Origin: a virus
Length of the DNA stretch: 27,654 nucleotides
Reading direction: 5' to 3' (one strand)
Virus record (IMG/VR): IMGVR_UViG_3300033388_002261
Coordinates: 1-27,654 of that record
Below, piece after piece: positions 2,530-14,868 of the stretch; within the stretch, counting starts at the first letter, position 1, and each line of letters opens with the position of its first letter. Position numbers and translations under genes: made by a program. A model generated the notes under the pieces. It was given only the letters and a program-made list of their open reading frames with translations, had not been told where the DNA came from and made no database searches.

Positions 2530-2552
2530 TCAGAAAAACCTTGTAGCGTCGC

Positions 2553-2581
2553 TTGCTATGGTGTCAGAATGAGACTATAGT
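2553..2581 (+). promoter_or_regulatory. Sigma70-like promoter with overlapping 25-bp dyad (copy 1)
   Basis: The -35 is TTGCTA (2553-2558), the spacer 17 bp, the -10 TATAGT (2576-2581). A dyad covers 2556-2580: left arm CTATgGTgTCA, centre GAA, right arm TGAgACtATAG, with 9 of 11 positions complementary. A repressor bound there would block polymerase directly. Bases 2552-2579 are identical to 5113-5140. Confidence 0.75.
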
Positions 2582-2617
2582 AAGATTAGAAACCAACAAC
2601 CAAAGGAGTAGCAGCCG

Positions 2618-2770
2618 ATGAACAAGTCAGAACTTGAATACCTGAAAGATCAACTCAAAGAGCACGAAGAGAACCTCAGGCTCTCCAAGAGGCATCGCAA
2701 TACGTTGCTGATCGAATACCGCAAAGGATCGGTCAACATCCTAAGGCAAATCATAAGAAAGTTTAGCTAA
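2618..2770 (+). CDS. Small coiled-coil/basic peptide (50 aa)
   Basis: The frame reads MNKSELEYLKDQLKEHEENL and ends IIRKFS followed by TAA. SD AAAGGAG (2602-2608) lies 9 nt before ATG 2618, and the promoter at 2553-2581 lies just upstream, so expression is well supported despite the size. The N-terminal 30 residues are a strongly charged amphipathic helix suited to a coiled coil; the C-terminus is basic. It is the first gene behind copy 1 of the duplicated promoter cassette. The 115 bases after it (2771-2885) hold no gene I can support, only a possible weak hairpin near 2815-2832 (CGCTGA/TTAGCG). Function unknown. Confidence 0.7.
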   Translation: MNKSELEYLKDQLKEHEENLRLSKRHRNTLLIEYRKGSVNILRQIIRKFS

Positions 2771-5094: not shown

Positions 5095-5113
5095 GAATCT
5101 TTGGCTAAACCCC

Positions 5114-5142
5114 TTGCTATGGTGTCAGAATGAGACTATATT
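5114..5142 (+). promoter_or_regulatory. Sigma70-like promoter with overlapping dyad (copy 2)
   Basis: The -35 is TTGCTA (5114-5119), spacer 17 bp, -10 TATATT (5137-5142). The dyad at 5117-5141 has 8 of 11 positions complementary. Similarity with copy 1 continues through the leader to the SD (AAGGAGTAGCAACCG against AAGGAGTAGCAGCCG) and the ATG, so the whole promoter-operator-leader block looks duplicated. Confidence 0.75.
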
Positions 5143-5177
5143 GAGGTATTGAAACAATCAACAAGGAGTAGCAACCG

Positions 5178-5375
5178 ATGAAAATCTACGATGTAGTACT
5201 AACTCACGGCAACCGCAACAACGAGCTCAGCTTTATGGTAATTGCTAATAATCAAAAGGAATCCATTAAGAAGGCTAGGGCATTTATAAAGAATGAGGGA
5301 TTCAAGGTCGAGTCACCGCGTGAATATTACTCCACGCTAGCAAACTTTTCAGATGACGGCGTACTTAATATCTAG
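5178..5375 (+). CDS. Small phage protein (65 aa)
   Basis: 65 residues, predicted beta-alpha-beta by eye: IYDVVLTHG, SFMVIANNQKESIKKARAFI, then a charged tail. The AAGGAG SD lies 9 nt before ATG, directly downstream of promoter copy 2. The pattern 'F.v.A.n..eA...A..f' is common among small phage proteins that fold like ferredoxin-type accessory domains, but this is only a resemblance. Function unknown. Confidence 0.75.
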   Translation: MKIYDVVLTHGNRNNELSFMVIANNQKESIKKARAFIKNEGFKVESPREYYSTLANFSDDGVLNI

Positions 5376-5393
5376 CCAAAACCAACCAACCGA

Positions 5394-6124: not shown

Positions 6125-6324
6125 CCGTTCTTACAAACCAATTTGGAGACACAATAAGCCATACAGACGAGCGCTATGGTTCTTGTGTTATTTCAATCAA
6201 AGAGCTAGGCGTTGTCAAAACGTGGTGCAACACAAACGAAACTATCAAATATCCACTGAGACAGGCTAAGGCGCTTGTGAGGTCGGTGCGTATGTGCAAG
6301 TGCAGAATAAGGTGGACCAAATGA
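6121..6324 (+). CDS. Small basic phage protein
   Basis: 67 residues with an ATGA overlap at each end and SD GAGAGG upstream. C-terminal segment RSVRMCKCRIRWTK is basic and Cys-containing, which might contact nucleic acid. Nothing else is recognisable. Confidence 0.65.
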   Translation: MTVLTNQFGDTISHTDERYGSCVISIKELGVVKTWCNTNETIKYPLRQAKALVRSVRMCKCRIRWTK

Positions 6325-6509
6325 CGATCAACGAATACAGGAAGGCGCTAGGTTGGACGGTCAAGGAGCTTCTGAAGGCAATGGAGATATCGCTGTCAAC
6401 CTATAAGCGCATTAGCAACGGAACTCAGCAACTGACTAAGTTTCATATTTTTTGGCTGGATGCTAAATTGCGCAATGTGGACAGGCGTAAAAAGAAGGTG
6501 CGGAAATGA
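6321..6509 (+). CDS. Cro/C1-like helix-turn-helix protein
   Basis: 62 residues from ATG 6321, which overlaps the previous stop; an upstream in-frame ATG at 6294 is less likely. The sequence EYRKALGWTVKELLKAMEI then SLSTYKRISNGTQQLTKFH has the order of a lambda-repressor-type HTH: helix 1, 'T.kEL...m.is..t..R...G' for helices 2-3, then helix 4. The C-terminus is basic (RRKKKVRK). Likely a small DNA-binding regulator and a candidate ligand of the dyads at 2556 and 5117; that link is inference. Confidence 0.7.
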   Translation: MTINEYRKALGWTVKELLKAMEISLSTYKRISNGTQQLTKFHIFWLDAKLRNVDRRKKKVRK

Positions 6510-8430: not shown

Positions 8431-8490
8431 AAATATAGAAAACCTGAAGTATTGTATATCTGAGCGAGGTGAGAGTCGCTGAGAAATTTT

Positions 8491-8545
8491 AATGCCCATT
8501 CGGTCGAACATGATATGTTCACTCTCACCCGAACGGGCATTTTTT
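8491..8545 (+). terminator. Rho-independent terminator with nested hairpin
   Basis: Outer stem AATGCCC (8491-8497) with GGGCATT (8535-8541), extended inward by TTCGG/CCGAA after one mismatch. The loop holds a second perfect stem, GAACAT (8506-8511), loop GAT, ATGTTC (8515-8520). Six T residues (8540-8545) follow the outer stem. It separates the head morphogenesis gene from the HNH gene. Confidence 0.8.
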
Positions 8546-8559
8546 ATTGGATCAGAAAG

Positions 8560-9186
8560 ATGGTAGGAAAATCATTCGGAGAGTGGCTAGTTCTGAGTAA
8601 ATCTGAGCGAAGTTTATATTTTGTATGCGAGTGCTCTTGTGGGGCCATTAAGGATGTCTATAAGTCCTCTTTGAAGAAAGGGGTATCACGTAGTTGCGGT
8701 TGCAAGATGCGTCAGCATGCAGGAAAGCATTCATGGAATAACGACAATGAGAGAAGGCTATCCTCTGTGCTTAGCTACATGATACAGAGGTGTAATAATC
8801 CAAAAACTCAAAACTATCATAGATATGGTGGACGCGGTATATCTGTATGCTCAGAATGGATTGAAAACAGACAATCATTCGTTGAATGGGCTATTAGAAA
8901 TGGGTGGCACCAAGGCCTTGAGGTGGACCGAATTAACAATGATGGAAACTATTGCCCTGATAATTGTAGATGCGTAACGCATATGGAAAACTGCAAGAAT
9001 AAGAAAAATATCCAAACAGCAACGATGGGCGGAGTTACAAAAACGATTCGTGATTGGGAAAGAGATCGAGGAATGCCGAAAGGAATAATTAGCTATCGAT
9101 TAAAAGCAGGATGGAATACAGCCGAAGCTATTAATGTGCCGACAAGTGCTTCTCATAAAGACAAGTATTACAACAAGTACAAGTAA
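8560..9186 (+). CDS. HNH homing endonuclease (free-standing)
   Basis: 208 residues from ATG 8560; an in-frame ATG at 8515 lies inside the terminator hairpin and is rejected. N-terminal strand GKSFGEWLVL, then a zinc-binding domain with C23, C25/C27, C46 and C48. The nuclease core runs from the helix LSYMIQRCNNP through YGGRGISVCSEW to LEVDRINNDGNYCPDNCRCV (120-139), the typical phage HNH 'GL.iDRiDnDGnY.p.NCRw.t' motif. Residues about 162-192 (TIRDWERDRGMPKGIISYRL, GWNTAEAI) are a modular DNA-binding helix-turn-helix of the kind found at the C-terminus of homing enzymes. Probably a selfish gene inserted after the terminator. No intron is evident because flanking genes are intact. Confidence 0.9.
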   Translation: MVGKSFGEWLVLSKSERSLYFVCECSCGAIKDVYKSSLKKGVSRSCGCKMRQHAGKHSWNNDNERRLSSVLSYMIQRCNNPKTQNYHRYGGRGISVCSEWIENRQSFVEWAIRNGWHQGLEVDRINNDGNYCPDNCRCVTHMENCKNKKNIQTATMGGVTKTIRDWERDRGMPKGIISYRLKAGWNTAEAINVPTSASHKDKYYNKYK

Positions 9187-10137: not shown

Positions 10138-10185
10138 TAATCGCCCCTATTTTGCCGCAATTTCCCAGCCCCGCCCAGGCAATAC

Positions 10186-10202
10186 CTTAACAGAGTGTTA
10201 AG
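10186..10202 (+). promoter_or_regulatory. Operator-like palindrome beside promoter
   Basis: CTTAACA (10186-10192), GAG, TGTTAAG (10196-10202): perfect 7-bp arms with a 3-bp centre, two bases upstream of the -35 hexamer at 10205. Good candidate operator or activator site for the 10301-11032 operon. As RNA it could also end the preceding operon, but no T-run follows. Confidence 0.6.
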
Positions 10203-10204
10203 CC

Positions 10205-10233
10205 TTGACTAAACCGCTTTTTCTTGCTATATG
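10205..10233 (+). promoter_or_regulatory. Sigma70-like promoter
   Basis: The -35 is TTGACT (10205-10210), spacer 17 bp, -10 TATATG (10228-10233) preceded by TTGC. It drives the small operon 10301-11032. The intergenic region (10138-10300) has no other coding potential that I can support. Confidence 0.6.
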
Positions 10234-10300
10234 TCGCTGATGGCGCACGGAGTAAAGCCGGACAAACAATAATGCAGAGATGACGAAAAGGAGAGAAGAG

Positions 10301-14368: not shown

Positions 14369-14785
14369 ATGGCCTTAACTGGAACAATTGGAAACGATCC
14401 GGCCAAGTTTGACCCGGACTACATTATGGAAGCAGGCGCACTGCCTAACGCTACCGACGCCACTACTGACGCGTTCATGATTGGACGCACTCAGGGCGGG
14501 GTTCAACTTGACATTGTAGCCGATACAACTGTTGATATCGCAGATGGCGAAAGCCTGACGATTGAACTGTTGCATGATACGTCTGCAACTGGTGATTTCG
14601 CTGATAGTGTCGTAATCTACGACGAGACTGCTTCTGGCAGTGCTATCACGTTCGAGATTGATGACACAATCATCAACTACATCGCCACTGATGACGTTGA
14701 AAGCTATAACAAGCTGAAGATCACAACCAGCGGTAACGAGAGCCTTGACAAGATCAACGCTTTCCCTACCACGGTTTCCCACTAA
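14369..14785 (+). CDS. Capsid cement/decoration protein (Bbp16-like candidate)
   Basis: 138 residues, acidic, beta-rich (LDIVADTTVDIADGESLTIE, SAITFEIDDTIINYIATDDV), with no cysteine. Sits 12 nt after the major capsid gene with SD GGGAGG. Length, the 'D.~~~gesLtieL..~d....F' strand pattern and position resemble Bbp16-type capsid cement proteins, which stabilise the outer surface of the head. Alternative: a head-assembly protein of another decoration family. Confidence 0.65.
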   Translation: MALTGTIGNDPAKFDPDYIMEAGALPNATDATTDAFMIGRTQGGVQLDIVADTTVDIADGESLTIELLHDTSATGDFADSVVIYDETASGSAITFEIDDTIINYIATDDVESYNKLKITTSGNESLDKINAFPTTVSH

Positions 14786-14793
14786 TTGGAGCC

Positions 14794-14868
14794 ATGCTGG
14801 TCTCACTCTCTTACGTTATGCGTAAGGGGGTGGGGCTACTGCTTATCAACACACAGGATCTGATATGA
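14794..14868 (+). CDS. Possible 24-aa leader peptide with hairpin
   Basis: ATG 14794 reads MLVSLSYVMRKGVGLLLINT and QDLI, ending in TGA that overlaps the next ATG (ATGA), with TTGGAG 2 nt upstream. A stem CTTACG (14810-14815), loop TTATG, CGTAAG (14821-14826), extendable by G-T pairs, lies inside. It may couple or restrict translation of the zinc-finger gene. Weak evidence; could be chance. Confidence 0.3.
   Translation: MLVSLSYVMRKGVGLLLINTQDLI

Follow-up and report, generated by a model that had tools for sequence, protein, structure and literature searches.

An uncultured tailed phage carries, among its early genes, two copies of a promoter-and-start cassette, each preceding a different small gene. 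The duplicated cassette is real and, judged by its sequence, probably functional. It lies in a window of 27,654 bases, which is the entire IMG/VR virus record IMGVR_UViG_3300033388_002261 and probably a fragment. Each copy is composed of an exact 28-bp repeat coinciding with a sigma70-type promoter match, a diverged stretch, and a second block that holds the SD and the ATG. The component features are as follows.

2552-2579, + strand: 28-bp exact repeat, copy 1.
2553-2581, + strand: sigma70-type promoter match (9/12), copy 1, with TTGCTA (2553-2558), 17 bp, and TATAGT (2576-2581).
2556-2580: imperfect dyad CTATGGTGTCA-GAA-TGAGACTATAG, copy 1, centred in the promoter spacer, 9/11 pairs; candidate operator or + strand RNA hairpin.
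2603-2622, + strand: start-associated block AAGGAGTAGCAGCCGATGAA (SD and ATG), copy 1.
2618-2770, + strand: small gene 3' of copy 1, 50 aa, of no family.
2769-2778, + strand: AACCAACCGA at the first gene's stop codon, weak evidence for a 3' edge of the cassette.
5113-5140, + strand: 28-bp exact repeat, copy 2.
5114-5142, + strand: sigma70-type promoter match (9/12), copy 2, with TTGCTA (5114-5119), 17 bp, and TATATT (5137-5142).
5118-5140: the same dyad, copy 2, 8/10 pairs; candidate operator or + strand RNA hairpin.
5163-5182, + strand: start-associated block AAGGAGTAGCAACCGATGAA (SD and ATG), copy 2.
5178-5375, + strand: small gene 3' of copy 2, 65 aa, of no family and with no relative in phages.
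5384-5393, + strand: AACCAACCGA shortly past the stop codon of the second gene.

The main genes of the window are all on the + strand and comprise an O-like replication initiator (its end only), a DnaC-like helicase loader, many small early genes, a MuF-like protein, an HNH endonuclease, a portal protein (phrog_145, DUF4055), the capsid region, the tail tape measure and the terminase small subunit (its start only). The nearest annotated relatives of the portal are in siphophages of Pseudomonas and Escherichia (34-35% identity), and closer portal relatives (55-68%) are found only on contigs of 4-5 kb that do not reach the early region. The early array is tightly packed and co-directional; its three longest gaps are 88, 115 and 83 nt, and two of these are occupied by the cassettes. 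Among the other gene junctions, we note that AAAGGAGATTGAGAAATGA is common to three successive ones (1710-1728, 2042-2060 and 2275-2293), at which the next ATG overlaps the previous stop and a C-terminal KEIEK is encoded, forming a repeated gene-junction/RBS motif. A strong intrinsic-terminator-like hairpin (AATGCCC...GGGCATTTTTT) is located at 8490-8545, between the MuF-like gene and the HNH endonuclease gene (8557-9186).

The 28-base identity between the two copies, as reported in a preliminary description of this DNA, is exact on re-checking and is far above chance: the window has no longer exact repeat, and the longest in first-order Markov shuffles are 13-17 bp. The likeness was also said to extend to the SD and ATG, and it does so through the second block, which matches at 19 of 20 positions (95%) and reads AAGGAGTAGCA(G/A)CCGATGAA across both copies. 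Between the blocks are 22-23 nt that have diverged (~13/23 identical, ~57%) and that differ in length by 1 nt, and beyond the cassette the 28 nt before it and the 28 nt after ATGAA are each identical at 9/28 positions, which is the chance level. The shared unit is 70-71 bp long and consists of two blocks under constraint that flank an unconstrained middle; identity is 47/48 in the blocks, compared with ~13/23 in the middle (Fisher P 2e-5, for blocks chosen after the fact). This block-wise conservation argues for selection on the promoter and the RBS, and against a very recent copy.

The genes that follow are unrelated. Their 50 aa and 65 aa products show no similarity when compared with each other, and the possible 3' edge is defined only by AACCAACCGA, whose core, CCAACCGA, is present at these two places only in the window; an alignment of equal quality is reached by 9 of 500 random region pairs.

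The promoter is the strongest part of the case made previously, and the claim of a promoter and leader/RBS cassette ahead of two different small genes is borne out by the promoter score, its position, the block-wise conservation and the intergenic location. Both copies have -35 and -10 hexamers 17 bp apart, within the 16-18 bp of sigma70 promoters, and the edges of the repeat follow the promoter footprint of the copies, starting 1 bp ahead of the -35 and ending 2 bp short of the end of the -10. The -10 boxes, TATAGT and TATATT, differ solely at the fifth base and both are still good; from a sigma70 promoter, transcription would be expected to start 5-9 nt past the -10. The two copies score fourth to fifth among 27,622 + strand positions (copy 1 has rank 4) with an approximate sigma70 matrix. 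Matches of 9/12 begin at 0.076% of + strand positions (~0.8 per kb by chance), and the chance of one at any of the 3 positions that fit the block is ~0.002 (+ strand). The leaders downstream of both promoters are unstructured.

The explanation that we consider reasonably probable is that these are compact start cassettes, comprising a sigma70-type promoter, a free leader and an SD/ATG block, that are switched by a spacer-binding regulator. We infer transcription from the cassette, together with a regulator and co-regulation of the two genes, in the following way. An unchanged stretch from the -35 to the -10 would be followed by ~20 nt of free leader and then by the conserved SD/ATG block, such that a small early gene within a long co-directional early operon would be transcribed from a start of its own and translated from a strong ribosome site, both supplied by the cassette, and a DNA-binding regulator covering the spacer would switch both genes together. 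The spacer sequence itself is not needed by sigma70, and because the spacer here is both conserved and roughly symmetric, a DNA-binding regulator is likely to be the best reason for its identity.

The dyad described previously is imperfect, and it is weaker in copy 2. A 25-bp dyad with 9/11 pairs is present in copy 1, where a one-base extension of TATGGTGTCA-GAA-TGAGACTATA provides it, and is not in copy 2, where the outermost pair is lost and 8/10 pairs remain over 23 bp. Dyads of equal quality are found in 1.4% of the 30-nt stretches of the window, and this one is moderately unusual, suggestive rather than striking. It could possibly serve as an operator for a dimeric repressor, and the HTH protein encoded at 6321-6509, which has a weak HTH_3 match just below the Pfam cut-off, is a candidate regulator by proximity alone. 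Repressors of the cI/Cro type and other phage repressors use promoter-overlapping operators, and polymerase would be blocked at a dyad that lies across the spacer and hexamers. The dyad here similarly overlies the spacer and hexamers, but it is imperfect and has no repressor tied to it, and the promoters are inside a co-directional operon rather than at a divergent switch.

The dyad sequence seems equally compatible with a DNA operator and with an RNA hairpin, and the repeat could instead be an RNA element, in which a 12-14 bp hairpin just 5' of the SD in read-through transcripts acts in processing (RNase III-like), stability or insulation and the promoter match is incidental. The + strand folds with -16.9 kcal/mol in copy 1 (2552-2584) and -12.5 kcal/mol in copy 2, values reached by 1/1000 and 9/1000 shuffles respectively, whereas the - strand folds (-4.5 and -6.3 kcal/mol) are no better than shuffles; the strands differ because a number of the positions that count as mismatches in the dyad form G-U pairs on the + strand. 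The arm of copy 2 past the identical block still pairs (CCUUG/UUGAGG), and this phage has a strong intercistronic hairpin elsewhere (14795-14840) whose structure is kept in three relatives (L001-L003). However, when the core is held fixed, the share of random 3' flanks that pair equally well is 12% of draws for copy 1 and 25% for copy 2, which leaves the pairing outside the identical core without significance, and an Rfam search gives no relevant match. The conserved edges are those of the promoter and not those of the hairpin, and for this reason we favor the DNA reading and regard an RNA element as a doubtful alternative. The dyad might also have two functions: bound as DNA by a phage regulator, it would shut off both promoters together, and folded into a hairpin in read-through transcripts, it would insulate the gene that follows. 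The result would be a portable dual transcription/RNA start cassette, which we think very unlikely.

Two further explanations dispense with the regulator or with sigma70. A plain segmental duplication by recombination, with spacer identity reflecting a recent common origin and with neither regulator nor mobility, is consistent with there being two copies only and with the unrelated flanks and genes, but a middle at ~57% alongside blocks at 100% and 95% is unexpected for a recent copy without selection, and we consider it quite unlikely. The sites of T7-like polymerases each form one uninterrupted conserved block whose last bases, up to -1, are ACTATA. It is conceivable that the repeat serves as promoter for a single-subunit RNA polymerase of this type encoded by the phage, as it ends in GAGACTATA, followed in copy 1 by a G, and so resembles the CACTATAG core of T7/SP6 promoters. 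Copy 2 has a T at +1, though, a polymerase gene is not recognised in the window, and the best other window match to the last 16 bases is 12/16, with the head and tail genes included; with no copies in the late genes, we reject this as extremely improbable.

The cassette is known from this contig alone, in two copies, and the mobile module of the earlier interpretation is hypothetical. A third copy is absent from the window at up to 3 mismatches to the 28-bp repeat (0 expected), and an exact 27-mer and a relaxed form of the dyad are both absent from IMG/VR. A looser 17-base pattern is present there in 6 contigs representing 4 distinct sites, about the number expected by chance, and none of the 4 precedes a recognisable SD and start codon. 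Phage and plasmid collections contain only insignificant matches to the cassette, and the element was not found in 18 portal-bearing relatives (L001-L018), most of which do not cover the early region. Searches with the early proteins identify no relatives apart from distant DnaC-like loaders, and neither a 215-aa early protein nor the portal profile reveals prophage relatives.

Two other promoter-like sites are of note. A 142-nt gap (10138-10279) before gene 10280/10301 contains TTGACT-17-TATATG with TGC ahead of it (10204-10232). This may be a third promoter, although its matrix score is poor, and it has CTTGCTAT in common with the cassettes; as a third cassette it is rejected, since CTTGCTAT and a CTAAACC stretch are all that it shares with them. 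Of the 4 sites with the looser 17-base pattern, one alone (L022:665-691) is a good palindrome, the near-perfect TATAGTGTCA-ATG-TAACACTATA with a promoter-like TTGCTA-17-TATAAC. It is situated where a phage integrase gene ends (3' end) and not before a gene, and may belong to an attachment or regulatory region.

A separate element, a covarying predicted RNA hairpin, is located downstream of the capsid genes. After the gene 3' of the capsid gene, a stretch that is conserved (CACTAATTGGAGCCATGCTG) is followed by a hairpin of very high predicted stability (14778-14840 for the two together), with counterparts at L001:3495-3560, L002:3800-3860 and L003:4090-4160. The hairpin is predicted at -27.9 kcal/mol in this phage and, in the relatives, at -22 to -23; no two of the four phages have the same stem sequence, but 47 of 48 hand-aligned pairs are kept. 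It is a good candidate for an undescribed structured RNA in this lineage, with a role in processing, termination or translation control.

The preliminary description likened the cassette to those of T4-type phages, in which mobile regulatory cassettes were reportedly described by Arbiol in 2010. The likeness is that of a small regulatory unit with an early promoter set between genes; the differences are that here there are two copies in one contig with none found in other phages, and no sign of a T4-type genome.

A closer parallel in layout is seen in the cluster K mycobacteriophages, in which the ESAS, a repeat of 46-47 bp located between genes, carries SigA-like hexamers separated by 17-18 bp as well as an imperfect inverted repeat, and is positioned 5' of a start-associated repeat (SAS) that covers the ribosome site (PMC3203893; Adephagia, PMC11373665). 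For the ESAS, Pope 2011 considered binding of a protein to the DNA site more likely than an RNA hairpin (PMC3203893). The present cassettes are likewise repeated and intergenic, lie before unrelated genes mostly in one orientation, and combine a sigma70/SigA-like promoter and imperfect inverted repeat with a second, separate block of conservation that covers the ribosome site and the start codon; in layout they have what defines the SAS/ESAS arrangement, a repeated intergenic promoter and inverted repeat 5' of a start-associated block. They differ in copy number, with two in 27.7 kb of a record that is probably a fragment as against 7 ESAS and 11-19 SAS in cluster K, and in their dyad arms, which are 10-11 bp with a 3-bp spacer here and 15-17 bp with a longer spacer in the ESAS. 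An SAS is recognised by the 13-bp consensus GGGATAGGAGCCC, which lies within 3-9 bp of a start codon and may deviate at 2 positions at most; neither strand of the window matches this consensus when up to 2 mismatches are allowed. The phage lineage is also different from that of the cluster K mycobacteriophages. We conclude that the cassette probably works like an ESAS in its layout, but by its sequence is not a member.

Repeated start cassettes of a similar kind are already known in other phages. It appears that cassettes combining a promoter, a symmetric site and a gene start have also arisen outside the cluster K mycobacteriophages, in phages not related to them, and concrete candidate promoter coordinates are now on hand for this lineage. 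If true, this would represent a convergent route by which phages bring newly acquired small genes under a common regulator as part of the early programme.
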